From: Syntrophaceae bacterium UBA6109
Lineage (GTDB): Bacteria > Desulfobacterota > Syntrophia > Syntrophales > UBA6109
Direction of reading: 5' to 3'
Length of the DNA: 64,000 nt
Assembly (NCBI GenBank): GCA_002428445.1
Contig: DIWJ01000024.1
Location: 4,569-68,568, forward strand
Positions 1 to 27,166 of this stretch are shown here, piece after piece. Positions within the stretch are counted from its first letter, which is position 1, and every line of letters begins with the position of its first letter. The position numbers were made by a program, and so were the translations under genes. The notes beneath the pieces are model-generated. The model was not told where the DNA came from. It ran no database searches and saw only the letters and a list, made by a program, of their open reading frames with translations.

Positions 1-2
1 TG

Positions 3-377
3 GGCACCGCCGAGATCGAGAGCGCCATGGTCGCCCATGCCAAGGTCGCCGAGGCCGCGGCGGTGGGGGTGCCGCATAAGCTCAAGGGCCAGGCGATCTA
101 CGTCTATGTGACGCTGGTGTCAGGCGTGCAGCCGTCGGATGCGCTGCGCCAGGAACTGCAGCAGTGGGTGCGCCGCGAGATCGGCCCGATCGCCGTGCCG
201 GACGTGATCCAATGGGCGCCGGGCCTGCCGAAGACGCGTTCGGGCAAGATCATGCGCCGGTTGCTGCGCAAGATTGCCACCAACGAATACGACTCGCTCG
301 GCGATACCTCCACGCTGGCCGACCCGAGCGTGGTGGACCAGTTGATCGATAACCACAAGGCGATGGAACGCGTATGA
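3..377 (+). CDS. acsA: acetyl-CoA synthetase, C-terminal end (partial)
   Basis: The reading frame is open from the window edge and ends with TGA at 375-377, so only the last ~124 residues are present. It contains the mobile C-terminal domain of an AMP-forming acyl-CoA synthetase. The motif [17 protein letters not shown] carries the conserved lysine that is acetylated in acetyl-CoA synthetases (family knowledge). The '[12 protein letters not shown]' opening and the length of the tail fit Acs better than other family members. The enzyme makes acetyl-CoA from acetate, ATP and CoA in the cytosol. The substrate assignment rests on the C-terminus alone; a propionyl-CoA synthetase is possible. Confidence 0.85.
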
Positions 378-420
378 GGGATGGCGTCGGGCAGTACCGT
401 TCGCTTGGCCTGCCAAAAGC

Positions 421-497
421 ATCGCCGCGAGGTCGCGCCTCCCACAAAAAGCAGCGAGCCCACATCGGACCCGTGGGAGGCGCGACCCCGCGGCGAT
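421..497. repeat. Pseudomonas-type REP doublet (inverted pair)
   Basis: Two 25-base arms, 421-445 and 473-497, are inverted repeats of each other with a single mismatch, separated by 27 bases. Each arm carries the GTGGGAGG...GCGGCGAT pattern typical of Pseudomonas REP sequences, and the inverted pair has the layout of a REPIN. It lies between the convergent 3' ends of the acetyl-CoA synthetase and oligopeptidase genes, the usual place for such elements. No other copy was noticed in the window. The remaining bases of the 378-671 interval show no gene. Confidence 0.8.
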
Positions 498-671
498 ACG
501 GGCCGTAGGCCCGCCTGCGCTAGCCCCCGGCCGGGGGCGTCTTCAGCGTGTCGCTGCCGGTGGCGACCTGGGCATTGTCCCTCGGTCGCTGCAGCTCGGC
601 GTCGGAAGGCTCCAGTGGGCAGCCTGCAACTCCGCCCGCTCCAATTACCCGAACTGCCCCGGGTGCCGACG

Positions 672-2711
672 CTACCCGGCCATACCGAACACCTTGAGGA
701 TGAACGCATATTCCAGCGCCACGTCCCTGAGCGCCTGGTAGCGCCCGCTCATGCCGCCATGGCCGGCGCCGAACTCGGTCTTGAGCAGCAGCAGGTTGTC
801 GTCGCTGCGGGTGGCGCGCAGCTTGGCCACCCATTTGGCCGCTTCCCAGTACTGCACGCGGCTGTCGTTGTAGCCGGCCACCGCCAGCAGCGCCGGGTAG
901 GCCTGGGCGCGGACGTTCTCGTAGGGCGCATAGGCCTTGATCCGCTCGTGCACCTCGGGTTGGTTGGGATCGCCCCATTCGTCGTACTCGGTCACGGTCA
1001 GCGGCAGGTCGGCGTTGAGCATGGTGTTGAGCACGTCGACGAAGGGCACTTCGGCGATGGCCGCGCCGAACAGCTCCGGGCGCAGGTTGAGCACCGCGCC
1101 GATCAGCAGCCCGCCGGCGCTGCCGCCGCTGATGGCCAGGCGCTGCGGCGTGGTGTGGCCGTCGGCCAGCAGCTTCTCGGCGCAGGCGATGAAGTCGTTG
1201 AAGGTGTTCGGCTTGTGCTCCAGCTTGCCGGCACGGTACCAGGCCTCGCCGAGATCGCCACCGCCGCGCACATGGGCGATGGCGAAGACGAAGCCGCGGT
1301 CGAGCAGCGACAGCCGCGCGTGCGAGAACCAGGGGTCGAGGCTGTGGCCATAGGCGCCGTAGCCGTAGAGATAGAGCGGCGCCGACTTGCCGAAGCTGTC
1401 GCGGCGCGCCACCAGGCTGATCGGGATTCGCGTGCCGTCCTCGGCGGTGGCCCAGATGCGCCGGCTTTCGTAGGCGTCGGCGTCGAACGGCCCTTCCACC
1501 GGGGTTTCCTTGAGTACGGCCTGGGTGCCATCGGCCAGGGTCAGCTGGCGGATCTGCGCCGGGCGGTTGAGCGCCTCGTAGCGCAGGCGGATCACCGTGC
1601 TGGTGAATTCCAGCGAGTTCTGCACGTGCAGGCTGTAGGCCGCATCGGGCAACTGCAGGCGATAGGGCTGGACGCCCTGCGGCCGCACCTCGATCACGGG
1701 TAGGCCGCTTTCGCGCAGGGTCAGGGTGATCGCCTCGGCATTCAGGCTGACGTCCTCGAGCATCACCGCGTCGCTGTGCGGCACCAGCTCCTGCCAGTGC
1801 TCGCGGCCCGCTCGCGCCTCGTCGGCGCGATACAGGGCGAAGTTGATCCCGGCCTGGTTGCTGCGGATCAACCAGCTCCACTGGCCTTCGTAGAGGCCGT
1901 GGTCGGGGAAGTATTCGTGCTCCTCCTGGCGCGGCGCCAGGCAGGTCCACTGGCCCTGCGGTTCGTCGGCCGGGAGCACCCAGGCTTCGCTGGTGGTCTT
2001 GCTGTGGGAGAGGATCACCAACTGGCGATCGGAGCTGGCGCGGTAGCAGTGCACGAAGAAGCGCCCGTCGGGGTCGTGGAAGACCTCGCTGCTGTCGCTC
2101 TCGCCGAGACGGTGGCGATGAATCCTGTGTGGCCGGTGGGTCTCGTCGAGTTCGCCGAAGAACAGCGTCTGGCTGTCGTTGGCCCAGGTCATGCTGCCGT
2201 CGCAGTCGTCGAAGGGCAGGGCGCTGACTTCGCCACTGGCCAGGTCCTTGACGTACAGCCGGTAGATCTCGTCGCCTTCGCGGTCGAGGCTGTAGGCCAG
2301 CTTGCCGTGGTCCTGGCTGATGCTGAACGCGCCGAGCGAAAGAAAACCGCCACCGGCCAGTTCGTTGGGGTCGAGCAGCAGCTGCTCGGCGCTTTCGTCC
2401 ACGTTCAGCGAGCCATCCAGCGGGCGCGGGCAGCGGTAGTGGCGTGGGTACTCGTCGCCGGCGGTGGTGCGCTGGTAGTACAGCCACGGACCCCAGGGCG
2501 AGGGCAGCGACAGATCGGTTTCGCGGATGCGCCCCTTGATTTCCTGGAACAGCGTTTCGCGCAGTTCGGCCTGGTCGGCGAGCTGTTCCTCGAGATAGGC
2601 GTTCTCCGCCTTGAGGTAGGCGAGCACGTCGTCGGCGTCGCGATTCTCCAGCCAGCGGTAGGGATCGATGTCGGTGTCGGTGTCGGCGCGGGCGATGGGG
2701 GCTTGGGACAT
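672..2711 (-). CDS. ptrB: oligopeptidase B (S9 family protease II)
   Basis: A 679-residue prolyl-oligopeptidase-family serine peptidase, cytosolic, expected to cut short peptides after Arg/Lys. An N-terminal beta-propeller is followed by an alpha/beta hydrolase domain. The nucleophile motif GGSAGG puts Ser at about 531, with candidate Asp at about 616 (YNDSRV) and His at about 651 (GAGHGG), almost the numbering of E. coli OpB. The ATG at 2711 (MSQAPIARA) is preferred over an in-frame ATG at 2747 because CCGGAG lies about 9 bases upstream of it. It is transcribed away from fadB. No signal peptide is visible. Confidence 0.93.
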   Translation of the reverse strand: MSQAPIARADTDTDIDPYRWLENRDADDVLAYLKAENAYLEEQLADQAELRETLFQEIKGRIRETDLSLPSPWGPWLYYQRTTAGDEYPRHYRCPRPLDGSLNVDESAEQLLLDPNELAGGGFLSLGAFSISQDHGKLAYSLDREGDEIYRLYVKDLASGEVSALPFDDCDGSMTWANDSQTLFFGELDETHRPHRIHRHRLGESDSSEVFHDPDGRFFVHCYRASSDRQLVILSHSKTTSEAWVLPADEPQGQWTCLAPRQEEHEYFPDHGLYEGQWSWLIRSNQAGINFALYRADEARAGREHWQELVPHSDAVMLEDVSLNAEAITLTLRESGLPVIEVRPQGVQPYRLQLPDAAYSLHVQNSLEFTSTVIRLRYEALNRPAQIRQLTLADGTQAVLKETPVEGPFDADAYESRRIWATAEDGTRIPISLVARRDSFGKSAPLYLYGYGAYGHSLDPWFSHARLSLLDRGFVFAIAHVRGGGDLGEAWYRAGKLEHKPNTFNDFIACAEKLLADGHTTPQRLAISGGSAGGLLIGAVLNLRPELFGAAIAEVPFVDVLNTMLNADLPLTVTEYDEWGDPNQPEVHERIKAYAPYENVRAQAYPALLAVAGYNDSRVQYWEAAKWVAKLRATRSDDNLLLLKTEFGAGHGGMSGRYQALRDVALEYAFILKVFGMAG

Positions 2712-6481
<3,770 letters not shown>

Positions 6482-6562
6482 CAGACAGATGCAAATGACT
6501 GCGCTAGGCTGATAGCCGCGCCCGCAGGTTCGCGGGCAGAGTTTGTCAGCCGGTGCATGGAA

Positions 6563-6594
6563 GCCGGGGCCTGGTGCCCCGGTTTTTCTTTTTT
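6563..6594 (+). terminator. intrinsic terminator after fadBA
   Basis: Arms CCGGGGC (6564-6570) and GCCCCGG (6576-6582) form a 7-bp GC stem with a 5-base loop, followed by a T-rich run to 6594. It ends the fadBA transcript; the next gene starts 21 bases later with its own ribosome binding site. Confidence 0.85.
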
Positions 6595-6614
6595 GTCGTT
6601 GCGTGGAGGTAGGC

Positions 6615-6848
6615 ATGCAGTTGCAGCCGGGGCGTTATCGCCACTACAAGGGCCCCGAATACCGCGTATTCGCCGTGGCGCGGCATTCCGAGACGGAAGA
6701 GCCGATGGTGTTCTATCAGGCGCTGTACGGGGAACGTGGCCTCTGGGTTCGGCCGCTGTCGATGTTCAGCGAAACCGTCGATGTCAATGGCGAAACCGTC
6801 CCGCGGTTCGCCTTGATCGAGGTCGAGCCGAGCCTTTTTGAGGGTTGA
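6615..6848 (+). CDS. DUF1653 domain protein
   Basis: A 77-residue cytosolic protein starting MQLQPGRYRHYKGPEYRV, the hallmark of DUF1653 (a small beta-rich domain of unknown function). GGAGGT at 6605-6610 precedes the ATG. A gene of this family occupies the same place between fadA and topA in P. aeruginosa (PA3012, from memory). Function is unknown. It starts just after the fadBA terminator, so it either has its own promoter or is expressed by readthrough. Confidence 0.85.
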   Translation: MQLQPGRYRHYKGPEYRVFAVARHSETEEPMVFYQALYGERGLWVRPLSMFSETVDVNGETVPRFALIEVEPSLFEG

Positions 6849-6875
6849 GCTGGCATGCGGCCAGCAGGCTCGCGC

Positions 6876-6905
6876 TTGACCTCACCTCCATCGCCACTAT
6901 ATATA
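6876..6905 (+). promoter_or_regulatory. candidate sigma-70 promoter for topA
   Basis: TTGACC (6876-6881) is followed after 16 or 18 bases by TATATA (6898-6903 or 6900-6905). This is the best promoter-like sequence in the 284-base gap before topA and implies a leader of about 220 bases. The region is AT-rich compared with its surroundings. No start-site data support it. Confidence 0.45.
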
Positions 6906-7132
6906 GCGGTGCTTTTTAGACAGAGCGAAACCTTCAGCGTCCGGTTTACCGGCATTCAGTGGTGCTGATTCGCGCCAGACGTCATCGGGGGATAACGGGC
7001 AGGCTTGTGGGCCGCCGTTCGCAAATTCCGCGCTAGCGTTCGCTGATGCCTTGCCGACCGCCGCTGGCACGGGTATTCACACTGCCGAAGCGTCGCCTCT
7101 GTTCACCTCTCGATTCAGGAACTCTCCTCTCC

Positions 7133-9733
7133 ATGGGTAAATCGCTGGTCATCGTGGAATCACCGGCCAAGGCCAAGACAATCAACAAGTATTTGGGTAA
7201 CCAGTACGTGGTGAAGTCGAGTATCGGCCATATCCGCGACCTCCCCACCAGCGGTTCGGCCAGCAAGGAGCCGGTCAAGCGCGGCAAGGCCGCCGCCGAG
7301 GCGCCCGCGCTGTCGCCCAAGGAAAAGGCCAAGCGCCAGTTGGTCGCGCGCATGGGCGTCGACCCTGAGCACGGCTGGAAGGCCAAGTACGAGATCCTGC
7401 CCGGCAAGGAGAAGGTGATCGAGGAACTGCGCCGCCTGGCCAAGGAAGCCGACACCATCTATCTCGCGACCGACTTGGATAGGGAAGGGGAGGCCATCGC
7501 CTGGCACCTGCGCGAGTCCATCGGTGGCGACGACAGCCGCTACAAGCGCGTGGTGTTCAACGAGATCACCAAGAAGGCGATCCAGGAAGCCTTCGCCGAG
7601 CCCGGCGAGCTCGACCTGAACCGGGTCAACGCGCAGCAGGCGCGGCGCTTCCTCGACCGCGTGGTCGGCTACATGGTTTCGCCGCTGCTCTGGGCGAAGA
7701 TCGCCCGTGGGCTGTCTGCTGGCCGTGTGCAGTCGGTGGCGGTGAAGCTGGTGGTCGAGCGCGAGCGTGAAATCCGCGCCTTCGTTCCGGAAGAATACTG
7801 GGAAGTGCATGCCGACCTGGCCACCGCGCAGCAGGCCAAGGTGCGTTTCGAAGTCGCCCGCGAGAACGGCGAGGCCTTCAAGCCGCTGAACGAGGCGCAG
7901 GCCAATGCCGCGCTGGAGAAGCTCAAGGGCGCGAAGTACAGCGTCAGCAAGCGCGAGGACAAGCCGACCAGCAGCAAGCCGTCGGCGCCTTTCATCACCT
8001 CGACCCTGCAGCAGGCGGCGAGCAATCGCCTGGGCTTCGGCGTGAAGAAGACCATGATGATGGCCCAGCGGCTCTACGAGGCGGGCTACATCACCTACAT
8101 GCGTACCGACTCGACCAACCTCTCGGCCGACGCCATCGCCATGGTGCGCGGCTTCATCGAGGACGAGTTCGGCAACAAATACCTGCCCGAGAAGCCCAAC
8201 GTCTATTCGAGCAAGGAGGGCGCTCAGGAGGCGCACGAGGCGATCCGCCCGTCCGACGTCAACCTGCGGCCCAACCAGCTGTCCGGCATGGAGCGCGACG
8301 CCGAGCGCCTGTATGAGCTGATCTGGCGCCAGTTCGTTGCCTGCCAGATGCCGCCAGCGCAGTACCTGTCCACCAGCGTGACGGTCAGCGCCGGTGACTT
8401 CGAGCTGCGCGCCAAGGGCCGCATCCTCAAGTTCGACGGCTACACCAAAGTCATGCCGCAGCAGAGCAAGGCCGGCGAGGACGACGTGCTACCGGAAATG
8501 AACAAGGGCGACGACATGAAGCTGCTCAAGCTCGATCCGAGCCAGCACTTCACCAAGCCGCCGGCGCGCTATTCCGAAGCCAGCCTGGTCAAGGAAATGG
8601 AGAAGCGTGGCATCGGCCGGCCGTCGACCTACGCGGCGATCATTTCGACCATCCAGGATCGCGGCTACGTCTCGCTGCACAACCGTCGTTTCTACTCGGA
8701 GAAGATGGGCGACATCGTCACCGAACGCCTCTCCGAGAGCTTCAACAACCTGATGGACTACGGCTTCACCGCCGGCATGGAAGAGCACCTGGACGACGTC
8801 GCCCAGGGCGAGCGCGACTGGAAGCACGTGCTCGACGAGTTCTACGGCGATTTCCGCAAGAAACTGGAAGTCGCCGAGGCCAGCGAGAACGGCATGCGCG
8901 CCAACCAGCCGACGCTGACCGACATCCCGTGCAAGGTCTGTGGCCGGCCGATGATGATCCGCACCGCTTCGACCGGTGTGTTCCTCGGCTGCTCCGGCTA
9001 CAGCCTGCCGCCGAAGGAGCGCTGCAAGTCGACGGTCAACCTGATCCCAGGTGACGAGATCGCCGCCGATGACGAGGGCGAGTCCGAGTCCCGCGTGCTG
9101 CTTGGCAAGCGTCGCTGCCCGATCTGCAGCACCGCAATGGATGCCTATCTGCTCGACGAGACGCAGAAACTGCATATCTGCGGCAACAACCCGGATTGCT
9201 CCGGTTATGAAATCGAGAAGGGCCAGTACCGCATCAAGGGCTACGAGGGGCCGAGCCTGGAATGCGACAAGTGCGGCAGTGAAATGCAGCTCAAGACCGG
9301 CCGTTTCGGCAAGTTCTTCGGCTGCACCAATGCCGAGTGCAAGAACACCCGCAAGCTGCTGAAGAACGGCGAGCCGGCGCCGCCGAAGATGGATGCGGTG
9401 AAGATGCCGGAACTGCGCTGCGAGAAGGTCGACGACACCTACGTGCTGCGCGACGGCGCTTCGGGGCTGTTCCTCGCCGCCAGCCAGTTCCCGAAGAACC
9501 GCGAAACCCGCGCGCCGCTGGTGCAGGAGCTGATCCCGCACAAGGACGAGATCGATCCGAAGTATCACTTCCTGCTCGAGGCGCCGCGGCAGGACCCGGA
9601 AGGCCGTCCGGCAGTGATCCGCTACAGCCGCAAGAGCAAGGAGCAGTACGTCCAGTCCGAGGTCAACGGCAAGCCCACCGGCTGGAAGGCCTTCTACGAC
9701 GGCGGCAAGTGGAAGGTCGAGGACAAGCGCTGA
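7133..9733 (+). CDS. topA: DNA topoisomerase I
   Basis: 866-residue type IA topoisomerase that relaxes negative supercoils. It opens with the TOPRIM signature [17 protein letters not shown] and has DLDREGE at about 114-120. Active-site Tyr is at about 322 in [13 protein letters not shown] (E. coli Tyr319). The C-terminus carries CxxC zinc-ribbon modules ([19 protein letters not shown] with a downstream Cys pair). The ATG at 7133 is the start; a longer in-frame extension to 7046 encodes a non-conserved stretch. Length agrees with Pseudomonas TopA. The long leader suggests room for regulation but no site was recognised. Confidence 0.97.
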
Positions 9734-9741
9734 CAGGCCTT

Positions 9742-9779
9742 GCCGGCCCGGTGTCCGATGAGCGGGCGCTTGGGCCGGC
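9742..9779. repeat. 8-bp perfect inverted repeat after topA
   Basis: GCCGGCCC (9742-9749) and GGGCCGGC (9772-9779) flank a 22-base loop just after the topA stop. There is no T-run, so it may be an RNA-stabilising hairpin or a factor-dependent terminator. Confidence 0.5.
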
Positions 9780-9903
9780 GCGCTTCGATACCGGCGCCGT
9801 GGCCAGCTTCCGTTATCCCCCCCCCAGTGACACGGACGTGCTATTGGCGCGATGCCGCGCGAAGGTTCATTCTCTGCAACATCCCCTTTTCGGAGAGCAT
9901 CCC

Positions 9904-10422
9904 ATGGCTCACGAGCTCTACACCCGCACCAACCAGAAGATCTTTTTCGCCGGCCTGTCGCTGGATAGCTGGCGCAAGGCCGAAGAGGCCGCGTCGCTGA
10001 ACTCCCAGGGGTTGATCCAGGCCGAGCGCGAAGCCTGCCTGTTCCATCTCTACGGCGCTCTGCTGGGGCTGTGCCACGAGATCGCCGGCTACTATCGCAC
10101 GTCCGGCGCGGGTGCCCGCGCGGTGGCGGCGTTCCTCACCCGTGACGTGCTCGAAGCCGCGCCGAGCCCCGAACTTGCCGAACTGCTGGAGTTGTCCGAG
10201 CAGCCGGATACCTGGCTGTCTCAACTGCTCGGTGCCTATGACGCGCTGTTCGAGGCGCCACGGGCGCCGGCGAAGGTCAAGACCGATCCGCGCCAGCCGC
10301 TGATCGAGGCGGTCAGCCTCGAAGAGGAAGTCCCGCCCTTGCCACGGGCCGAACTGGAGGCCTGGCGGCAGAACCTCAAGGGCTTGGCGTTGCGCTTTCG
10401 TGAATCGCTGACGGAGTGGTGA
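9904..10422 (+). CDS. DUF6586 family protein
   Basis: A 172-residue protein with no signal peptide or membrane segment; predicted cytosolic and mainly helical. The opening MAHELYTRTNQKIFFAGLSL matches the conserved protein next to topA in pseudomonads (PA3010 in P. aeruginosa, from memory). GGAG lies shortly before the ATG. Its function is unknown and the sequence shows no catalytic motif. It is a stand-alone gene, convergent with the transporter gene that follows. Confidence 0.8.
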   Translation: MAHELYTRTNQKIFFAGLSLDSWRKAEEAASLNSQGLIQAEREACLFHLYGALLGLCHEIAGYYRTSGAGARAVAAFLTRDVLEAAPSPELAELLELSEQPDTWLSQLLGAYDALFEAPRAPAKVKTDPRQPLIEAVSLEEEVPPLPRAELEAWRQNLKGLALRFRESLTEW

Positions 10423-10440
10423 GACGCGCCCGCCGCGGCA

Positions 10441-11280
10441 TCATGCGCGGTACCTGATCCTCAGCACCAGGGCGATGCCGCCGAGTATGGCCGCGCCGGA
10501 GATGAGCAGCGTTGCCGTCAGCGCCTCCCCCAGCAGCAGGGCGCCGGCAATTGCGGTGAGCAGGGGTACGCTGAGCTGTACGCTGGCAGCTTGTATCGCC
10601 ACCAGGCCGGGTATGGCCGCGTACCAGATGGCGTAGCCGATTCCCGATGTCAGTGCGCCGGAGAGTAGCGCATAGACCACGCCGGCCCGATCCCATTGCT
10701 GCTGCCCCATCAGGATGAGGCACAGCAGCGCTGCGAATGGAACGGCCCTGGCGAAGTTGCCCGCGGTTGCCGCGAGCGGGTTGCTGGCCGCCCGTCCCCG
10801 CAGCGAATACACGCCCCAGGCCACACCTGACAGCAGCATCAGCAGGGCACCACCGAGCGCCGGTGCGCGGCTTCCCGGCAGCAACAGGATCAGCAACCCG
10901 CTCAGGGCGAGCAGCAGGCCGATTATCTGCCCTCGGCTGAACCGCTCGCCCTTCAGTAAGCCCCAGGCCAGCATGCTCAGCTGCACCGCGCCGAACAGCA
11001 GCAGCGCACCGGCCCCCGCATCCAGGCTGAGATAGGCGAAGGAGAAGCTCGCGGCATAGGCGAACAGGGCGCATGCACTGAGCCAGTCTCCGCTCAGCGG
11101 TTGGTTGGGCCGACGGATGCGCAGCAGCAGCCAGAGCGCGATTGCTCCGGCGAATATGCGCAGCCCGGTAAAACTGGCAGGGTCCATGCCGGTGTCCCTC
11201 AGGGCAATGCGGCAAAGAATCGAGTTGCCGGCGAATGCAAGCATGGCCAGGGTGGTGAGCAGCAAGGTGCGGATCGTCAT
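10441..11280 (-). CDS. EamA/DMT-superfamily transporter
   Basis: 279 residues with about ten hydrophobic helices in two homologous five-helix halves, the layout of drug/metabolite (EamA) transporters of the inner membrane. The N-terminal half has NSILCRIAL and FTGLRIFAGAIALW; the second half has ALLSGALTSGIGYAIWY and QLSVPLLTAIAGALLLGEAL, typical of the repeat. The substrate cannot be told from sequence; relatives export amino acids or metabolites. It is transcribed opposite to its neighbours and ends 18 bases from the DUF6586 stop. Confidence 0.9.
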   Translation of the reverse strand: MTIRTLLLTTLAMLAFAGNSILCRIALRDTGMDPASFTGLRIFAGAIALWLLLRIRRPNQPLSGDWLSACALFAYAASFSFAYLSLDAGAGALLLFGAVQLSMLAWGLLKGERFSRGQIIGLLLALSGLLILLLPGSRAPALGGALLMLLSGVAWGVYSLRGRAASNPLAATAGNFARAVPFAALLCLILMGQQQWDRAGVVYALLSGALTSGIGYAIWYAAIPGLVAIQAASVQLSVPLLTAIAGALLLGEALTATLLISGAAILGGIALVLRIRYRA

Positions 11281-11468
11281 GTGCAGTCCTGTTCTCGGGG
11301 CGCATCGAGACGCCCACTTTCTTTTTCAGCACATCCTACGTTGTTGGCATTGCCGCGTGCATGATCGCTCTTCCGATGGGAGGCAATGAAGACCTGCTTC
11401 GGTCGGCCAACAGCTGTTCTGTCGGTAGTCGGCTGGTACAATGCCCGCCTTTCATGCGGAGCTGATCC

Positions 11469-11705
11469 ATGCCTACATCTTTTCTGGAAATCGTCGAGCT
11501 ACCCGACGGGCGCATCGTGCTTCGCCGCGCCGAGGACGAGGAGGTGCTGGTCACGCTGGATTTCTCCGATGATGCCAAGTTGTTCCTGCAGGGGCAGCAT
11601 GTCGAGATCGCCAAGGCAATGTTCAATGTCGGGGTGCAGATGGCCGGCCGCATGACGGAAGGCGATTTCGAGCGGGAGGACGAGGAACCGCGCGTTCTGC
11701 ATTGA
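11469..11705 (+). CDS. conserved small protein upstream of sulA (PA3009-like)
   Basis: A 78-residue acidic protein beginning MPTSFLEIVELPDGRIVLRR. No membrane segment or signal peptide is seen. GGAG lies about 8 bases before the ATG. A protein of this type sits at the same location, between a DUF6586 gene and sulA, in P. aeruginosa. Function unknown. The high Glu/Asp content and short length suggest a soluble single-domain protein. Confidence 0.8.
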   Translation: MPTSFLEIVELPDGRIVLRRAEDEEVLVTLDFSDDAKLFLQGQHVEIAKAMFNVGVQMAGRMTEGDFEREDEEPRVLH

Positions 11706-11780
11706 GGCGGGAGGCGGTCGGTGGCAGCAGGTCGAGGGCCTGCTTCGGAGGAGGGCAGCACGTTCCCTGTGCTTTGCGAC

Positions 11781-12251
11781 TCAACAACCCAGGCGGATAT
11801 TGAGGCTTTGCGCTTCGCCAAGCGCGGCGGAGGCGCGCAGCTTGTTGCGGGTGAGGGCGTCGAGTTGCCCGAGCCAACTGACGACGGTGTGGCTGCAGCC
11901 CGAAGCGAGCGCCTTGCAGGCGAGCCCGAGTGCGCCTTCGGCGTCGCGTGGCTGCAGCAGGATGATGCGTTCACGGTTCAGCCCGCACTTGCGCAGCCAG
12001 TTCTGCGAGAGAAAGGCGGGCGGGGCGATCAGGGTCAGCCAGCGGCTGTCCGCGGCATCACCGAGTTCGCGCAGGATGGGCGCGAGCAGCAGGTGGCAAT
12101 GTTCACTGCTGCCGCTGAGGCTCAGTTCGCTCAGGTGTTCCTGCTCGGGCTTGCTGCGTGGCTTCATCTCGCCGAAGGGCGTCAGGCTATGGGCGATGAC
12201 GCCGTCGAACAGGGAAAGTTGTGGCCGGGAAGTGCTGGTCTGGTACTGCAT
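11781..12251 (-). CDS. sulA: SOS cell division inhibitor SulA
   Basis: 156 residues. SulA binds FtsZ and delays division during the SOS response. The central region LLLAPILRELGDAADSRWLTLIAPP followed by RIILLQPRDAEGALGLACKALASGCSHTVVSWLG resembles the RecA-like fold of the family. It starts 10 bases after the lexA stop, giving the lexA-sulA operon seen in pseudomonads, so it is expected to be controlled by the LexA boxes at 12,879-12,913. Assignment is by motif and synteny. Confidence 0.9.
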   Translation of the reverse strand: MQYQTSTSRPQLSLFDGVIAHSLTPFGEMKPRSKPEQEHLSELSLSGSSEHCHLLLAPILRELGDAADSRWLTLIAPPAFLSQNWLRKCGLNRERIILLQPRDAEGALGLACKALASGCSHTVVSWLGQLDALTRNKLRASAALGEAQSLNIRLGC

Positions 12252-12261
12252 GAACCTCTCC

Positions 12262-12870
12262 TTAGCGGCGTATGACGCCGACGCTCAAGCCTTCTATCAC
12301 CAATTCCTGATGTTCGAGATCGACCTCGATGGGGGCGAATTCCGGGTTTTCCGCCAGTAGCCAGACTTTCTTGCCGTCGCGCTTGAAGCGCTTGACGGTA
12401 ACCTCGTCGCCGACCCGCGCGACCACGATCTGGCCATTGCGTGCTTCACGGGTGGTGTGCACGGCCAACAGGTCGCCATCGAAAATGCCGATGTCCTTCA
12501 TGCTCATGCCATGAACACGCAGTAGATAATCGGCGCGTGGATGGAAAAAAGTGGGGTTGATCTGGCAGGATTCCTCGACATGCTGCTGGGCCAGGATCGG
12601 AGCGCCCGCCGCGACGCGGCCGATGATCGGCAGACCGGATTCCTGGGGGGCGGGTTCGAAGTCGGGAATACGTATCCCGCGGGAAGCGCCGGGCGTCATC
12701 TCGATGGCGCCTTTGCGAGCGAGCGCCTTGAGATGCTCCTCGGCCGCATTGGGGGACTTGAAGCCGAGCTCCTGGGCGATTTCCGCGCGGGTAGGCGGGT
12801 AGCCATTGTCTTCCAGGCAACGCTTGATGAAGGCGAGGATTTCCGACTGGCGGGGCGTCAGCTTGATCAT
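12262..12870 (-). CDS. lexA: SOS repressor LexA
   Basis: 202-residue transcriptional repressor with an N-terminal winged helix-turn-helix ([15 protein letters not shown]...[23 protein letters not shown]) and a C-terminal S24 peptidase domain. Self-cleavage site Ala88-Gly89 lies in [10 protein letters not shown]. The catalytic dyad is Ser123 (VHGMSMKD) and Lys160 ([10 protein letters not shown]), each offset by +4 from E. coli LexA. Two LexA boxes in its own promoter indicate autorepression, and sulA follows in the same operon. It is divergent from psrA. Confidence 0.98.
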
Positions 12871-12878
12871 GGCGGTCT

Positions 12879-12913
12879 CTGTTCTTTTATACAGTGACTG
12901 GGATTATATACAG
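12879..12913 (-). promoter_or_regulatory. two tandem LexA (SOS) boxes in the lexA promoter
   Basis: Two CTG-N10-CAG palindromes occupy 12,879-12,894 and 12,898-12,913, only 3 bases apart and starting 9 bases upstream of the lexA ATG. Both have AT-rich cores as in the gammaproteobacterial consensus. On the minus strand a TATAAT lies within the distal box and TTGCCA 16 bases before it, so bound LexA would cover the promoter. The double box is like the arrangement in E. coli lexA. Confidence 0.9.
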
Positions 12914-13016
12914 TGATCGGGCCTTGGCAATGACTGTTTCGCCGGTCCCGGGGCCGGCTGGGTGCGGGGGAGAAAGCCCTGCGACGATGACGCTAGTCTC
13001 GTGCGGGGTTTCATGG

Positions 13017-13060
13017 TTGACTTGTGGGTGGCTGAAACGTAAGTTTCAAACGGATGTTTG
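13017..13060 (+). promoter_or_regulatory. psrA promoter overlapped by two PsrA operators
   Basis: Two perfect PsrA-type sites abut: GAAAC-GTAA-GTTTC at 13,034-13,047 and CAAAC-GGAT-GTTTG at 13,047-13,060, sharing one base. TTGACT (13,017-13,022) and TAAGTT (13,040-13,045), 17 bases apart, form a plausible promoter whose -10 lies inside the first site. This arrangement predicts autorepression, which is known for PsrA in P. aeruginosa. Confidence 0.8.
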
Positions 13061-13075
13061 TCTTTCGGAGGGGGC

Positions 13076-13783
13076 ATGGCGCAGTCGGAAACAGTTGAGC
13101 GCATTCTTGATGCAGCGGAACAGCTGTTCGCGGAAAAAGGCTTCGCCGAGACTTCGCTTCGCCTGATCACCAGCAAGGCTGGGGTCAACCTGGCGGCGGT
13201 GAATTACCACTTCGGCTCGAAGAAGGCGCTGATCCAGGCGGTTTTCTCGCGTTTTCTCGGTCCTTTCTGCGTCAGCCTCGAGCGTGAACTGGACCGCCGC
13301 GAGGCCTTGACGAGCAAGCCGGACACGCTGGAGGAGCTGCTGGAAATCCTCGTCGAGCAGGCGCTGGCGGTCAAGCCGCGCAGCGGCGACGACCTGTCCA
13401 TCTTCATGCGCCTGCTGGGGCTGTCCTTCAGCCAGAGCCAGGGCCACCTGCGACGTTACCTCGAAGATATGTATGGCAAGGTGTTCCGCCGCTACATGCT
13501 CAAGGTGCACGAGGCGGCGCCGGCGATTCCTCCCCTCGAGCTGTTCTGGCGCGTGCATTTCATGCTCGGTGCGGCGGCTTTCAGCATGTCGGGCATCAAG
13601 GCGTTGCGGGCGATCGCCGAGAACGACTTCGGCGTAAAGACCTCCATCGAGCAGGTCATGCGCATGATGGTGCCTTTTCTCGCGGCGGGCATGCGTGCCG
13701 ATAGTGGCGTCGAGGATGCCACGCTCGCGCAGGCGCAGCCGGTGGCCAGGCGCAACGCGGTGGCGATGCCGGCCAAGGCTTGA
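13076..13783 (+). CDS. psrA: TetR-family regulator PsrA
   Basis: 235-residue TetR-family transcription factor. The N-terminal helix-turn-helix includes ERILDAAEQLFAEKGFAETSLRLITSKAGVNLAAVNYHFGSKKALIQAVF. The C-terminal ligand domain in PsrA senses long-chain fatty acids, which relieve repression of psrA and the fadBA operon and link to RpoS in P. aeruginosa (established). The ATG at 13,076 is preferred over an in-frame TTG at 13,058, with GGAGG at 13,067-13,071. It is divergent from lexA, as in other pseudomonads. Confidence 0.95.
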   Translation: MAQSETVERILDAAEQLFAEKGFAETSLRLITSKAGVNLAAVNYHFGSKKALIQAVFSRFLGPFCVSLERELDRREALTSKPDTLEELLEILVEQALAVKPRSGDDLSIFMRLLGLSFSQSQGHLRRYLEDMYGKVFRRYMLKVHEAAPAIPPLELFWRVHFMLGAAAFSMSGIKALRAIAENDFGVKTSIEQVMRMMVPFLAAGMRADSGVEDATLAQAQPVARRNAVAMPAKA

Positions 13784-13822
13784 GCTACAAGGCCGGCGGT
13801 CTATCGGCTAAGCTAGCCGCCT

Positions 13823-14347
13823 ATGACGCCTCTCGACCTGTTGCATATCTCCATTGCCGATCAACGACTTTACGGCTTCGCCGAAGGCCGGCTGCGCCTT
13901 CGTCTGCCCGTTTCCACCGCGCGTAACGGTGTTGGCGAGCGCAATGGCTCCGGTTGCACGCCGCGCGGGTTGCACCAGGTACGCGCGCGTATCGGCGAAG
14001 GGTTGCCGGCCGGGGCGGTGCTGCGCGGGCGGCGCTGGACCGGCGAGGTCTGGTCCGAGGCGCTGCACGCACGGTTTCCCGGTCGCGACTGGATCCTTAC
14101 CCGGATACTCTGGCTCAGTGGCTGCGAGCCCGGTGTGAACCGGCTTGGCGAGGTCGATACGTTCCGCCGCTATATCTATCTGCACGGCACACCGGACCAC
14201 GAGCCCCTGGGCGTGCCGCTTTCCCACGGCTGCATCCGCCTGCACAGTGCGGATTTGCTGGAACTTTTCCCACAGGTGCCGGCCCATTGCGCAGTGCGCA
14301 TCGAAGAGGCCGCCTGCCCGGCCTGGGCCGCCGCCGCACTCGACTGA
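13823..14347 (+). CDS. L,D-transpeptidase (YkuD family)
   Basis: 174 residues with the YkuD catalytic signature: His121 in YLHGTPDHEP and SHGCIRL with His135 and nucleophile Cys137. Such enzymes form 3-3 cross-links or attach proteins to peptidoglycan, or act in the cytosol on recycled muropeptides. No signal peptide is present at the chosen ATG (MTPLDLLHISIAD). Together with the adjacent nagZ, a cytosolic recycling enzyme, this leaves a cytosolic role possible. The nagZ start follows 15 bases after its stop, suggesting co-transcription. Confidence 0.85.
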   Translation: MTPLDLLHISIADQRLYGFAEGRLRLRLPVSTARNGVGERNGSGCTPRGLHQVRARIGEGLPAGAVLRGRRWTGEVWSEALHARFPGRDWILTRILWLSGCEPGVNRLGEVDTFRRYIYLHGTPDHEPLGVPLSHGCIRLHSADLLELFPQVPAHCAVRIEEAACPAWAAAALD

Positions 14348-14362
14348 GGACTCGCTCATTTC

Positions 14363-16124
<1,762 letters not shown>

Positions 16125-16141
16125 ACACCGCCGTGGTCATG

Positions 16142-16167
16142 CCCCTCGCCGGTGTCTTGGCGAGGGG
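16142..16167. repeat. hairpin after mtnP
   Basis: CCCCTCGCC (16,142-16,150) and GGCGAGGGG (16,159-16,167) form a perfect 9-bp stem with an 8-base loop. No T-run follows on either strand, so it may be a weak terminator or a transcript-end stabiliser. Confidence 0.55.
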
Positions 16168-16276
16168 GACGGAAACCTCGTTGTCATACGGCGGCACGAG
16201 ACTGGTAATTTTGCGGTGGGCCCCATTGCGGCAAGCATGTTGCTTGCTACACTTGGCCGTCCTATGGAGTACCGGA

Positions 16277-16774
16277 ATGTTTTGCCAGGCACGCACGATA
16301 AGAATAGTGAAAACAGTGGTGTTGCTGAGTTTGCTTGGCGGCCTGGTGGGTTGTTCCACCTGGTTCACCGGTGACTTCAAGGACCCCGAGGTTCAGCTCA
16401 CCAAGGTCGATATCATCAAGGCGAGATTACTGGAGCAGCAGTTCATGCTGCGCTTTCGCATCGACAACCCCAACGACCGCAGCCTGCCCGTTCGCGGGCT
16501 GATCTATACCGTTCACCTCAACGACATCGAATTGGCCAGCGGCGAGTCCAGCGGCTGGCTGACCGTGCCGGCCCATGGTTTCGAGTACTACGAGGTGCCG
16601 GTGCACACCAACCTGTGGCGCCATATGAAATACATCGTACGGTTGCTGGAGAAGCCCGACCGTCCGATCCGTTATCGCCTGGATGGCGAGATCAAAACCG
16701 GCCTGATGCTCGGCCGGCGCGTGCACATTTCCAGCGATGGCGAGATAATCCCGGGTAACTTTATTCCGGAGTAG
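16277..16774 (+). CDS. LEA type 2 (water-stress/hypersensitive-response domain) lipoprotein
   Basis: 165 residues. A basic N-terminus and hydrophobic stretch ([14 protein letters not shown]) end in a lipobox with Cys near residue 26, so it is probably a lipoprotein. The mature part [42 protein letters not shown] is typical of the LEA14-like fold. ATG 16,277 is chosen because GGAGT lies 6 bases upstream; the frame is open 144 bases further but without a ribosome site or signal sequence. Role unknown; relatives are stress-associated envelope proteins. It is closely followed by the SEC-C gene. Confidence 0.8.
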
Positions 16775-16781
16775 TACCCAG

Positions 16782-16970
16782 ATGAATCATGAAGCCCACG
16801 TGCACGGTCCCGATTGCAACCACGATCACGACCATGAACACCACCACGTGCATGGTCCGCATTGCAGCCACGGCCAGGAGCCGGTGCGCAACCCGCTGAA
16901 GGACGTCGGTCGCAACGACCCCTGCCCGTGCGGCAGCCAGAAGAAATATAAAAAGTGCCACGGCGCCTGA
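16782..16970 (+). CDS. His-rich SEC-C metal-binding protein
   Basis: A 62-residue protein. The first half is rich in His, Asp and Cys ([23 protein letters not shown]) and the second half is a SEC-C zinc finger ([19 protein letters not shown]). It is probably a zinc- or other metal-binding protein. No signal peptide. It starts 7 bases after the upstream gene and ends 7 bases before the next, so it belongs to one operon with them. Exact function unknown. Confidence 0.85.
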
Positions 16971-16977
16971 GCCTGCC

Positions 16978-17442
16978 ATGACACCCCTGATGTTGAGCCT
17001 GCTGGTGGTCGGAGCGCTGCTGATTGTGGCGCTCGCCGGCTATGCGCTGTATCTCTGGCGTCGCGTCTGGCGCAATGAGCGGTTGCAGGCGCAGACTCGC
17101 GAGCAACAACAGCAGGCACTGGCTGAGGACCTGCGAATCCTCGCCAACTGCCTGCTGGACGAGCAGTTGCCGTTGATCGAAGGGGCGATCCGCATCAAGG
17201 TGCTGCTCGACAACTACGACGCCAGTCTTGGCCAGCATCCGCGTTGCCAGGTCTTCCAGGTGCTTTTCGAAGCGACCAGGGAGGTGCCGACCCACGCCGC
17301 CTGGAGGGCACTGGACAAGCGCGAGCGGCGCCACCACGAAGCCACTTTCAGCGCGCTGGAGCTGCAACACAAGGCGGAGGCCCGTCGCTCGGCCCGTTGG
17401 CTGCTCGACGAGGCTCTGCCAAACTTCCACGACGCCGCCTGA
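16978..17442 (+). CDS. DUF2489 family membrane-anchored protein
   Basis: 154 residues. One N-terminal transmembrane helix (LMLSLLVVGALLIVALAGYALYLW) is followed by a charged, Gln-rich helical cytosolic domain containing EDLRILANCLLDEQLPLIEGAIRIKVLLDNYD, the DUF2489 core. Function unknown. It lies between the SEC-C gene and the acylase gene, all co-directional. Confidence 0.8.
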   Translation: MTPLMLSLLVVGALLIVALAGYALYLWRRVWRNERLQAQTREQQQQALAEDLRILANCLLDEQLPLIEGAIRIKVLLDNYDASLGQHPRCQVFQVLFEATREVPTHAAWRALDKRERRHHEATFSALELQHKAEARRSARWLLDEALPNFHDAA

Positions 17443-17515
17443 TCGCCCGATCGTCATCGCTGCGCGCCATCCAGTCTGATAGTCCTTCCTTGCCCAGCCC
17501 GCACAGGAGCCGTCG

Positions 17516-20053
17516 ATGTCTTCGTGTCTGCCATTCCCTCTGGTTCGCCTGGCCCTGGTGGCCACATTCGGCGTGTTCGGCCTCAGCGGCTGCCAGGCCT
17601 ATCTCGACAACCGCTACAGCGCCAGCCTGCCGCCGGCGCAGGGCATCCAGCCGCTGACCGGGCTGGCGGGCAGTGCGAGTATCCGGCGCAATTCGCTGGG
17701 CATGCCGCTGATCGAGACCTCGTCGTTTCACGATGCGCTGTTTGCCATGGGCTACGTCCACGCCAGCGACCGGCTGAGCCAGATGGTCAGCCTGCGGTTG
17801 ATGGCCCAGGGGCGCCTGGCGGAAATGGTCGGCCCCGGCGTACTGGAGACGGACCGCTTCATGCGCGCGGTCAATCTGCGCCAGAGCGCCGAAGTGCTCT
17901 ACCGCGAATCCTCGCCGCGGATGAAGAAGTTCTTCGAGGTCTACGCCCGTGGCGTGAACGCCTACCTGTATCGCCACCGCGACAAGCTGCCGATGGACCT
18001 CGCCGAGTCCGGCTACAAACCGGAATACTGGAAACCGGAGGACTCGGTGCTGGTGTTCTGCCTGCTCAATTTCGGCCTGTCGCAGAACCTGCAGGAAGAG
18101 GTCGCCGCGTTGCTGATGGCGCAGAAAGTGGGTAGCGACAAGCTGGCCTGGCTGTTGCCCATCTACCCGGACGAGGCGTTGCCGTTCGACGAGGCGGACA
18201 AGCTCAAGGGCTTGAAGCTGGGTGGCAGCGTGCCCGGGCTGGCGGCACTCGAGCGTGCCACGCAGCCGCTGGCGGCTCTGATGCCGGCCGGCATGGCAGC
18301 CTCCAACAATTGGGCCATCGCCGGCAGCAACACGCGCAGCGGCAAGCCGATCCTGGCCAACGACACGCACCTGCCGCTGTCGATGCCCTCGCACTGGAAT
18401 TTCATGCAGATCCGCGCACCGAAGTTCCAGGCGGCGGGTGTCACCATCGCCGGCGTCCCCGCCGTGGTGGCGGGGTTCAACGGCAAGCTCGGCTGGGGCA
18501 TGACGATGGTCATGGGCGACAACCAGGACCTCTATCTCGAGCAGGTGCGTCGCGAAGGCTCGCGGCTGATGTACCTGGCCGACGGCAAATGGCTGCCGGC
18601 CCGCGAACGCCACGAGACCTACTTCGTCAAGGGCGAGCGGCCGATCCGCGAGACCATTTTCGAGACCCGCAACGGCCCGCTGCTCAACAGCGTACTCGGC
18701 GAGCGCAAGCACCCGCTGCAACCGTTGCAGCTCGCCAGCGGCTACGGCCTGGCACTGAAGACCACGCAGCTGGAAGCCGATCGCACGCTGGACGCCTTCT
18801 TCGACCTGTCCCGCGCGCAGTCGGTGGACCAGGCCTTCGAGGCGACCCGGGAGATTCGCGCCGCCGCGCTCAATCTGGTCTTCGCCGACCAGCAGGGCAT
18901 CGGCTGGCAGGTTACCGGGCGTTTCCCCAACCGTCGCGAGGGGTTGGGGCTGGTGCCGTCGCCGGGCTGGGACGGTCGCTACGACTGGGATGGCTATGCC
19001 GACCCGATGCTGCATCCCTACGACCAGGACCCGTTCCAGGGCTGGCTAGGCACCGCCAACCAGCGCAGCGTGCCGCGCGGCTATGGCATGCAGCTGTCCA
19101 GCTCCTGGTACGGCCCGGAGCGCTACGAGCGGCTGGCGGAGCTGGCCGGGCGCGGCAAGCATGACACCCGCAGCACCATCGCCATGCAGTACGACCAGGT
19201 CACGCCGTTCGCCGCCAAGCTCAAGGCCATGTTCGAGGCGCCGGGCATGGCCGGGCCGCTGCGCCAGGCGGTCGATGCCCTGCCGGCCGCCGAACGCAGC
19301 AAGGCGCGCGAGGCGCTGGATCGGTTGCTCGCCTTCGATGGCAAGCTCGCGGCCGATTCGGCCAACGCCGCGCTGTATGGCGCCTTCCTGCACGAGAGTG
19401 CGCGGCAGATCTTTCTCGATGAACTGGGGCCTGAGGATTCGCCGGCCTGGCGTGCGCTGGTACAGACGGCCAACACTTCCTATTCGGCCCAGGCGGACCA
19501 TCTGCTCGGCCGCGAAGACAGCCCGTTCTGGAACGACCAGCGCACCGCACAGCGCGAAGACAAACCGGCGATCCTGGCGCGCAGCCTGGCCGCTGCGGTG
19601 AGTTTGCTGGAAACCCGTCTGGGCAACGAGCGCAGCGCCTGGCAATGGGGCAAGCTGCATACGGCTCGCTGGACCTCCGGCACGACGCAGCTGGCGCCGC
19701 ACATGCCGGCCGGCCAGCGCAGCAGAATCCATGCCATCGGCAACTATCTCGACCGTGGTCCCTATGCCATGGGCGGCGACCACAGCACGCTGAATGCCTC
19801 GGCCTATCACCTGGGCACGGACTTCGATACCTGGCTGATCCCGGCAATGCGCATCATCGTCGACTTCGGACTGGACGAACCGATGATCGGGCTGAACAGT
19901 TCGGGCCAATCCGGCAACCCGGCCAGCCCGCACTACGCCGACGGCATCGAGGCGTGGCTGAAGGCACAGTACCTGAGCTTCCCGTTCAAGACGGAAAATC
20001 TCGACAAGGTCTATGGCACGCAGCGTTTGTTGCTGACCCCGACCGGCAAGTGA
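17516..20053 (+). CDS. quiP: penicillin acylase family lipoprotein, QuiP-like acyl-homoserine lactone acylase
   Basis: 845 residues, near the 847 of P. aeruginosa QuiP. The signal sequence ends in a lipobox (VFGLSGC, Cys26), so the protein is probably exported and lipidated. The Ntn-hydrolase nucleophile Ser263 lies in [10 protein letters not shown]; self-processing before it would give an alpha chain, a spacer and a beta chain. Further family motifs are [12 protein letters not shown] and GDHSTLNA near the C-terminus. QuiP hydrolyses long-chain acyl-homoserine lactones. The exact substrate here is inferred from similarity and length; another amide substrate is possible. Confidence 0.82.
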
Positions 20054-20071
20054 GGTCGCGCCGCGCCGGCG

Positions 20072-20779
20072 TCAGGTCGGTCGCGGCGTCGCGGGTATCA
20101 CCTCGAGCACGCGGATCGTGCCCGGCGCAGGGTAGTGCCAGCGCACGTCGACATCCCAGAACTGCGCGCCGTAGCGCCGCTCGGGCTCCGGTTTCTGGTA
20201 CGCGGGGCGCGGGTCCTGCGCCAGGCATTGCTCGATGAGTTCCAGCAGTGGCTCGCCGAGGCGCAGCGCTTCGCGGTGGGCCTGCAGCAACCCGCTTTCC
20301 GTCCACTGCACCTCGATCAGTGTCGGCGCGTCCGCCGCCATGTCGTTGCGCGCATCCGGCAGGGCATCGGCGTAGGGGACATAGGGCTTGATGTCCAGCA
20401 CCGGCGTGCCATCCAGCAGGTCGATGCCGGAGATGAACAGCCGATCCGCTTCGACGCGATCCAGCCTGACCACCGATTGACCGATTCCGTTGGGGCGATG
20501 CGTCGCGCGGGTGGCGAACACGCCGACCATGCGATTGCCGCCCAGGCGCGGCGGTCGCACCTTGAGACGTGGTGTGCTTTCCAGCGCCTGATGGAAGAGG
20601 AACAGCAGCCATACATGGCTGACCTGTTCGAGTCCGGCCACCGCATCGCCCTTGTCGAACGGCGGCAGCAGTTCCAGCACGCCGCGTGCGGCCGGGGCCA
20701 GGCTGGGTTGGCGCGGAATGGCGAACTTCTCCTTGAAGCAGGAGCGGACGTAGCCGATCGGCGAGACGCTGTGTTGCAT
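20072..20779 (-). CDS. trmO: tRNA (N6-threonylcarbamoyladenosine-37) N6-methyltransferase TrmO
   Basis: 235 residues of the TsaA/YaeB family, a SAM-dependent enzyme that methylates t6A37 in tRNA-Thr(GGU). Motifs are IGYVRSCFKEKFAIPRQPSL near the N-terminus, RATHRPNGIGQSVVRLD in the middle, and LLDGTPVLDIKPYVPYAD. It is convergent with the acylase gene (18-base gap). Its 5' end points toward the composition/gene-content break and is the last clearly Pseudomonas gene in the window. Confidence 0.93.
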   Translation of the reverse strand: MQHSVSPIGYVRSCFKEKFAIPRQPSLAPAARGVLELLPPFDKGDAVAGLEQVSHVWLLFLFHQALESTPRLKVRPPRLGGNRMVGVFATRATHRPNGIGQSVVRLDRVEADRLFISGIDLLDGTPVLDIKPYVPYADALPDARNDMAADAPTLIEVQWTESGLLQAHREALRLGEPLLELIEQCLAQDPRPAYQKPEPERRYGAQFWDVDVRWHYPAPGTIRVLEVIPATPRPT

Positions 20780-20889
20780 GGGGCAGGCCTGGATACGGAC
20801 GGGCGGCTGGGCATCTTACCCGCTATGGCGCCGCGTTGCGCGACGTCGGGCCGCGTCCTCTGGGGAGGTGGCGGCCCGGCGCCAGAGGC
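20780..20889. other. junction between the Pseudomonas block and the deltaproteobacterial block
   Basis: This 110-base stretch separates trmO (Pseudomonas type) from the stop of trpB (deltaproteobacterial type). It holds no gene, integrase, attachment site or IS end that I can see. Two overlapping inverted repeats occur: GGGCCGC/GCGGCCC and CCTCTGG/CCAGAGG around 20,848-20,888. The latter could be a hairpin after trpB. trpA, normally next to trpB, is absent. The exact breakpoint cannot be placed by eye. Confidence 0.65.
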
Positions 20890-22080
20890 TTACAGGCCGA
20901 GCAGCTTGGCGACGTAGTCGGCATCCTTGTCGCCGCGGCCGGACAGATTGACGATGATGACGCCGCCGCGCCCCATGCCGGGGGCCGCCTTGATCGCGTA
21001 GGCGACGGCGTGGGCACTTTCCAGGGCCGGCACGATTCCCTCCAGGCGGGAAAGCCGGAGGAAGGCCTCCCGGGCTTCCGCGTCCGTCACCGTCGTGTAG
21101 ACCGCGCGGCCCGTGGCGTGGAGGTAGCAGTGCTCCGGCCCGACGCCTGGATAGTCGAGGCCCGCGGCAGCGGAAAAGGCGTCGCGGATCTGTCCGTGCT
21201 CATCCTGCAGAACAAAGGTCTTGGCGCCGTGGAGGACGCCCACCGATCCCATGGTGATGCTGGCCGCGTGGCGGCCCGTCTCCAGTCCTTCGCCGGCCGC
21301 CTCGACGCCGACCATGCCTACGCCCCTGTCGCCCCGAAAGGCGTGAAAAAGGCCCATCGCGTTGCTCCCTCCGCCGATGCAGGCGATCAGAAGATCCGGA
21401 AGCCTGCCTTCGCGGGAGAGGATCTGGCGTCTCGCCTCGCGGCCGATGACACTTTGGAAATCACGGACCATCCGCGGGTAGGGGTGGGGGCCCGCCGTCG
21501 TGCCGATGACATAGTAGGTGTCCCGCACGCGGGCCACCCAGTGGCGCATGGCCTCGTTCATGGCGTCCTTGAGTGTGGCCGTGCCCGAAGACACGGGAAC
21601 AACCTCCGCCCCGAGGATTTTCATCCGCATGACATTCGGCGCCTGCCTGCGGATGTCCTCTTCCCCCATGAAGATGCAGCACTCCATTCCAAAGAGGGCG
21701 GCGACGGTCGCGGTGGCGACGCCATGCTGGCCGGCCCCCGTTTCCGCAATCACCCTGCCTTTCCCCATCCAGCGGGCGAGGAGGGCCTGGCCCAGCGTGT
21801 TGTTGAGCTTGTGCGAGCCGGTGTGGACAAGGTCTTCGCGCTTCAGATAGATCTTCGCTCCGCCGAGCGATTCCGAAAGACGGCGCGCCGGATAGAGAGG
21901 CGTTTCCCGTCCCGCGTAGTCGCGCAGGAGTCCCCGGAGTTCTTCGCGAAAAGCGCGGTCTCGCTTCGCTTCGCCGTAGGCATGCTCCAGTTCGACAAGC
22001 GCCGTCATCAGGGTTTCCGGCGCGTACCGGCCTCCGAAGATGCCGAAATGACCTTTGCGGTCGGGCAATCCGTTTTTCAT
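20890..22080 (-). CDS. trpB: tryptophan synthase beta chain
   Basis: 396-residue PLP enzyme joining indole and serine. PLP lysine is Lys91 in [14 protein letters not shown]; the phosphate-binding loop GGGSNAMG and C-terminal SGRGDKD are present. The ATG at 22,080 is chosen over 22,086: AAGGAGA then has proper spacing, and the trpF stop and this start overlap as TGATG, implying translational coupling. It is the last gene of the trp operon here. The partner trpA is not found downstream, where the sequence switches to Pseudomonas type. Confidence 0.96.
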
Positions 22081-22790
22081 CACCATTCTCCTTGATTGGA
22101 ATTTTCACTTGTCCGCGCGGCTGGTTCATCTCCGCCCCGGACGGGCAACGGGCGAAAGACGGGACGCGGGCCATCCGCTTTCCACGCATGGACCATCCGG
22201 ATGAGTTCCTTCATTTTGCCGTGATCCTTGCGGCCGGGGGAACGTTCCACCCCGCTCGCGATATCCACCGCATCGGGCCCGACGCTGCGGAGGGCCTCCT
22301 CGATGTTGCCGGGATGAAGTCCTCCGGCCAGGATCAGACGGTGGCGGCGGCCGATTTCCCGGGCCGCGCTCCAATCCGCCTCCATCCCCGTTCCTCCGCG
22401 CAGGCCGCGCGCCCTTCCGTCCACGAGAAAGGCGCAAACCGGGTAGTCCCGCAGAAGCGCCGGTTGCGCCTCCTGTTCCTTTGAGACGGCCTTGATGAGG
22501 ATCGACGGCGGAAAGGCGCGGCAGTAGGAAGGGGATTCGTCTCCGTGAAGCTGAAGGAAAGCGAGGCGGCAGACCTTGCGGATGACATGAACCTCCTCCG
22601 CGTCCCGGTTGACGAATACGCCGACGCGCCGGATGTTTTTCAGGCGGACGGAAATCGCCGCCGCCGCTTCCGGTTCGATGTACCGGGGACTGTTTTCGGC
22701 GAAGATGAAGCCAAGGGCATCCGCGCCGAAGGCCTCGGCGGCAAGCGCATCTTCGATGTTCGTGATCCCGCAGATCTTGATTTCCGTCAT
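22080..22790 (-). CDS. trpF: phosphoribosylanthranilate isomerase
   Basis: 236-residue TIM-barrel enzyme of tryptophan synthesis (PRA to CdRP). The N-terminus has [26 protein letters not shown] with the catalytic Cys; LQLHGDES and [11 protein letters not shown] follow, and [18 protein letters not shown] closes the phosphate site. It is about 25 residues longer than usual owing to a poorly conserved tail. Its start overlaps the trpC stop (ATGA, 22,787-22,790) and its stop overlaps the trpB start. Confidence 0.95.
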
Positions 22791-23563: not shown

Positions 23564-23599
23564 ATGCCGAACATCCTTGCGTCATTCACGCTCTTCTCT

Positions 23600-23765: not shown

Positions 23766-23793
23766 ACATTCACGATATTCACCGCCGAAGAAT

Positions 23794-25391: not shown

Positions 25392-25395
25392 CTTC

Positions 25396-26889: not shown

Positions 26890-26901
26890 GGGTTCGACTC
26901 C

Positions 26902-26942: not shown

Positions 26943-26954
26943 GTACGACAGAAA

Positions 26955-26993: not shown

Positions 26994-27014
26994 GTGCGTT
27001 TTATCGATGAAAGA

Positions 27015-27086: not shown

Positions 27087-27110
27087 ACGATCCGCTCCAG
27101 ACGTACAGTC

Positions 27111-27139: not shown

Positions 27140-27166
27140 TAGGAAAATGGATTCCCGCCGGCACGT

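Follow-up and report, generated by a model that had tools for sequence, protein, structure and literature searches.

A join inside trpB between Stutzerimonas-type and Syntrophaceae DNA in a very probably chimeric contig

The stretch of DNA analysed here (the window) comprises 64,000 nucleotides of contig DIWJ01000024.1 of the assembly GCA_002428445.1. It is composed of a Stutzerimonas-type part on the left and a Syntrophaceae part on the right, which meet inside a hybrid trpB gene. We are highly confident that the window is an artefactual inter-species chimeric contig, a judgement that covers joins made in a library or by PCR as well as by an assembler. The window is thus most likely ordinary and not a case of natural gene transfer, and its significance is one of data quality only: the contig would place genes of the syntroph in a Stutzerimonas bin, or vice versa, and the hybrid TrpB is probably made by no organism. 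It also provides a clean example of a join concealed in an intact gene.

The Stutzerimonas-type part

The nearest genome to the left part is G001, 26% of whose sampled 31-letter words are in common with the window. The alignment to G001 is unbroken over window positions 1-20393, with identities of 99.2% (1-484) and 98.5% (485-20393), the split at 484/485 being a product of the G001 retrieval. Positions 14000-20950 match the same genome at 98%. The following features were recognised in this part:

1..20952, Stutzerimonas/Pseudomonas-type segment, its true end lying between 20918 and 20952; collinear to G001 and exact to G020 over 20863-20952
3137-5287, fadB
5306-6481, fadA
7046-9733, topA
11781-12251, sulA
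12262-12870, lexA
13058-13783, psrA-like gene, matching the PsrA model below its curated cut-off
14363-15361, nagZ
15387-16124, mtnP
17516-20053, acylase-like gene
20072..20779, minus strand, trmO (TIGR00104, 158.2 bits), beyond which the Stutzerimonas part has no complete gene

This side is labelled Stutzerimonas-type because of the source names of the relatives of the acylase-like protein. Among the 120 relatives listed, which are 74-93% identical, the closest named ones are from Pseudomonas stutzeri (82%) and Stutzerimonas stutzeri (79%). Unlike TrpB and RecC, the acylase-like protein has no record of the window's own among those listed, its best match being a 93% cluster of 735 sequences into which its own record has perhaps been collapsed. 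In a comparison of trmO with plasmid records, six records were returned and none of them covered 80% of the gene.

A near-identical trmO adjoins trpB in the Stutzerimonas-type genomes G001, G020 and G031, where this native trpB follows trmO in the same orientation; the TrpB model recognises the G020 copy. At least 27 of the 56 genomes of the genus have trmO and this trpB as neighbours, 25 of them recognised by one alignment and two by two adjacent pieces. The distance from the trmO start to the trpB stop is 110 bases in G020 and G031, as it is in the window.

The trpB beside trmO is a second copy. In G001, G020 and G031 (contigs G001:C32, G020:C466 and G031:C1; loci L128, L133 and L131) it has no trpA on its 3' side. 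Stutzerimonas-type genomes carry another trpB elsewhere, followed by an ORF that looks trpA-like by eye (L004). The opposite flank of the second copy in G020 and G031 contains ORFs resembling a transporter and dehydrogenases, also by eye.

The nearest genome changes just left of the join. Window positions 20750-20899 are nearer to G020 and G031 (94-100% per 50-base bin) than to G001 (70-96%), the reverse of the pattern in the left 20 kb, which is nearer to G001 (98.5%) than to G031 (85-91%). This hints that alleles are mixed in the Stutzerimonas population.

The Syntrophaceae part

To the right of the join, a single operon comprises trpB, trpF, trpC, trpD, trpG and trpE, the syntroph trp operon reaching to position 26937 overall. 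Besides trpB, the genes of the right part that were used are:

22080-22790, minus strand, trpF, scoring slightly under the curated cut-off of the TrpF model
22787-23563, minus strand, trpC
23794-24807, minus strand, trpD
about 24804-25391, minus strand, trpG, its start taken from the domain match
25396-26937, minus strand, trpE
55257..58637, plus strand, recC, located some 34 kb to the right of the join

TrpB is 95% identical to the protein of Syntrophaceae bacterium PtaU1.Bin231 (Thermodesulfobacteriota, Syntrophales), and it has three near relatives at 94-95% besides the identical-bodied protein record P0004 described below. Thermodesulfobacteriota is therefore the phylum of the syntroph's nearest named relative; Stutzerimonas we take to belong to Pseudomonadota. 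RecC matches itself and then proteins at 75, 74, 59 and 45%, with no other match above 75%. Nine RecC relatives with an organism name were listed. The first is from Syntrophales (45%), and the other eight are from Syntrophales, Syntrophobacterales, Pseudomonadota (two), a KSB1 bacterium, Desulfobacterium, a deltaproteobacterium and Desulfobacteraceae.

The right part was compared with 155 genomes from the order of G057, which its record title gives as Syntrophaceae and whose order is taken as Syntrophales. The trp region found matches at E <= 1e-200 in 55 of the 155. Since their identity is only 67-76%, the window's species is not among these genomes. A scan of genome contigs for TrpB, in which the best 80 of 569 relatives were considered, reached a top identity of 73%; these are loci for comparison and not the syntroph parent. 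Window positions 20700-32000 gave distant matches only to the 14 genomes behind those loci, at 64-74% where longer than 130 bases.

The sequence-only reading had described Pseudomonas-type genes on the left and genes like those of an anaerobic deltaproteobacterium on the right. The former description is borne out by the collinearity with G001 (98.5-99.2%) and by family matches including fadB, fadA, topA, lexA, the psrA-like gene, nagZ, mtnP and trmO. The latter holds for TrpB and RecC, whose relatives are of Syntrophaceae or deltaproteobacterial type.

The join inside trpB

The region of the join can be divided as follows:

20780..20889, 110-base gap with native Stutzerimonas spacing and 3 mismatches to G020
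20890..20952, minus strand, 3' end of trpB (stop and last 20 codons), matching Stutzerimonas
20919..20952, join zone of at most 34 bases, codons for 11 conserved TrpB residues that both parents encode
20953..22086, minus strand, body of trpB from the syntroph (TIGR00263, 610.6 bits), its protein equal to P0004 through residue 389

The three mismatches to G020 in the gap are at 20810, 20836 and 20862. From there the match is exact to 20952 in G020, through the stop and the last 20 codons of trpB, and to 20943 in G031 (20863-20943), while the exact run in G001 is of 38 bases (20906-20943). Right of the exact runs, identity to Stutzerimonas falls to about 60-80% per 50-base bin. Stutzerimonas identity thus continues through the gap into trpB. 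Therefore the gap, the stop codon and as many as 20 terminal codons of trpB come from Stutzerimonas, and trpB, the first gene on the right, is a hybrid.

An abrupt switch had been predicted from the letters alone within 20780-20990, which is where the join lies, and more precisely in the 110-base gap. The gap itself is ruled out because Stutzerimonas identity spans it; the join is located 30-63 bases past its right end, in trpB. This location matters, as it hints at the origin of the join. Since trpB taken whole looks syntrophic, gene-by-gene best-hit taxonomy would set the boundary next to it, in the gap.

The protein sequences tell the same two parents apart. The window TrpB equals that of P0004 up to the motif GDKDA and then diverges. 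Its last nine residues are DYVAKLLGL, an end that is the same in G020 and G031, reads DYVANLLGL in G001 and is absent from the syntroph relatives. The TrpB of P0004 ends in AAMIEGGAPIHEKN, and those of P0005-P0007 end alike; these four proteins, at 94-100% identity and with the window's own excluded, terminate in ...HEKN or ...HEKD.

Codon 390 encodes D (GAC) in the window versus A in P0004. As judged from the protein, it is the first codon that must differ, which sets the left limit of the join zone at 20919; the right limit, 20952, is where the exact match to G020 stops. P0004 has the 11 residues of the zone in common with the Stutzerimonas-type TrpB encoded by G001, G020 and G031. The exact stretch common to both parents would lie within these limits, and the shared word may be only 20-30 bases long, or 20-34 by the widest estimate. 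A 24-base core of the zone occurs exactly in one of the 155 genomes of the syntroph's order, where it sits at trpB (G131), and with up to two mismatches in 13 of them.

The missing trpA

No trpA is present next to trpB in the window. In contrast, a TrpA-family ORF adjoins trpB in all 11 loci scanned from the order Syntrophales, namely L008 and ten better-scoring picks of the 55 matching genomes. For each locus a script took as the next ORF the longest of those that begin no more than 700 bases from the trpB stop, and this ORF was then scanned with family models. Eighteen further trpB loci, from the scan of genome contigs for TrpB, were considered without a family model. The next ORF was trpA-like by eye in 13; in L009 and L022 too little sequence follows trpB (233 and 21 bases, respectively). 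Four Stutzerimonas-type loci were viewed too. The adjacency of trpB and trpA is not universal in the wider relatives, for in the remaining three of the eighteen, L010, L011 and L023, which are titled Desulfuromonadaceae or Geobacter, the next ORF is a different one that does not look trpA-like.

Composition and signs of integration

Neighbouring 10-kb flanks differ most in tetranucleotide composition at position 21,000 (contrast 0.348); at positions more distant than about 4-7 kb the contrast is 0.12-0.20. There is no step in G+C content at the join, the values being 0.678 (19001-21000), 0.676 (20001-22000) and 0.653 (21001-23000). Of the two shifts in composition that had been proposed as a check, the tetranucleotide one is therefore present and the G+C one is not. 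No tRNA and no Rfam match at the gathering threshold were detected in the window. The window has 191 ORFs of 100 aa or more, most of which overlap others; no integrase was found among the 54 distinct ones scanned. The sequence-only reading had placed no integrase and no tRNA in the gap; the absence of a tRNA extends to the whole window, and that of an integrase to those 54 ORFs.

Origin of the join

The chimera is most probably the work of an assembler that would have entered a short sequence common to two trpB 3' ends and left it by the wrong branch. One source would be the second trpB of Stutzerimonas type, beside trmO, and the other the trpB of the Syntrophaceae trp operon. At the join, the Stutzerimonas trpB would have lost its body and the syntroph its trpA. 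The hybrid trpB is open and normal-looking because the codons in common are in the same frame. A chimeric assembly had already been preferred to a large transfer in the sequence-only reading, and this preference is supported by the natural TrpB end of P0004, by the native trpB at the same place in G001, G020 and G031, and by the position of the join in a conserved stretch common to both proteins.

The contigs on which the proteins occur are consistent with this explanation. The hybrid TrpB (window 20890-22086) is the protein record P0003, found on one contig of 167,222 bases. P0004, a metagenomic protein recorded from the sources jgi, lgn and ena, occurs on two contigs, of which the longest has 234,623 bases, and the window's RecC is also on two contigs, the longest likewise of 234,623 bases. 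By this equality of length, one 234,623-base contig very probably represents the same syntroph region with its natural trpB end. The natural continuation of the Stutzerimonas parent is seen in DNA (G001, G020 and G031) and that of the syntroph parent in protein only (P0004). The window itself probably derives from a metagenome.

Several points count against a chimera. The 34-mer of the join zone is absent from all 155 genomes of the syntroph's order, allowing up to three mismatches, and with the rarity of its 24-base core this means that the shared word may span only 20-30 bases, less than the final k with which many assemblers work. No G+C step accompanies the join, and three relatives of TrpB reach 94-95% whereas none of RecC exceeds 75%.

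A variant of the same chimeric explanation is that the join was physical and preceded assembly, by template switching during PCR or amplification or by ligation in the library, at the conserved trpB stretch. The final sequence would look identical, and template switching likewise favours short common words. However, a rare chimeric molecule would have to outcompete the normal reads on both sides, and an error of the assembler would be simpler. We consider this variant unlikely, and the assembler to be the probable maker of the join.

A real and very recent transfer would have brought a large piece of Syntrophaceae chromosome into a Stutzerimonas cell through short trpB homology, replacing the body of the second trpB. 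The join is in homologous genes and in frame, as homology-aided recombination would yield, and both kinds of organism could live in one habitat. However, the piece would be of at least 43 kb and include housekeeping genes, yet none of the 54 ORFs scanned was named as a mobile element and there is no tRNA. Protein identity to the other, longer contig is 100% (TrpB to GDKDA, and RecC), which would leave a transfer no time for change, and there is no return to Stutzerimonas sequence on the right in the parts examined. The same adjacency was found in none of the 56 genus genomes, taken as independent genomes from collections that may omit records close to the window's own, and a 60-base junction pattern had no exact match in viral contigs. 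A syntroph-type trp operon was found in 0 of the 56 at E <= 1e-250, a result that has no control of its own and so shows nothing by itself; an overlapping query reached 1e-200 in 55 of the 155 genomes of the other order. A transfer of this kind is very improbable. That a Stutzerimonas lineage newly acquired over 43 kb of chromosome of a syntrophic anaerobe by recombination in a trpB stretch of 20-34 bases, with a working hybrid tryptophan synthase as the outcome, is scarcely credible.

Comparison with known systems

In genomic islands and other large horizontal transfers, as in the window, composition and gene origin change abruptly within one contig. Unlike genomic islands, the window has no tRNA, the ORFs scanned include no integrase, no second boundary was seen, and the adjacency recurs in 0 of 56 genomes.

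The closer likeness is to the inter-species chimeras that arise when metagenomes are assembled with de Bruijn graphs. In one published account, chimeric nodes of such assemblers are sequences common to, or evolutionarily conserved between, species (PMC8171044). In one benchmark given there, the chimeric share of the 500 longest contigs ranged from about 60% (Velvet-based assemblers and Megahit) to 87% (metaSPAdes) (PMC8171044). As in those contigs, two genomes are joined in the window at a short stretch that both would have in common, here conserved trpB codons, and each parent has a different continuation elsewhere. The account deals with sequence that is evolutionarily similar or conserved from one species to another (PMC8171044), whereas the parents of the window come from different phyla. 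The window also departs from that description in that the reading frame is intact across the join and conceals it.
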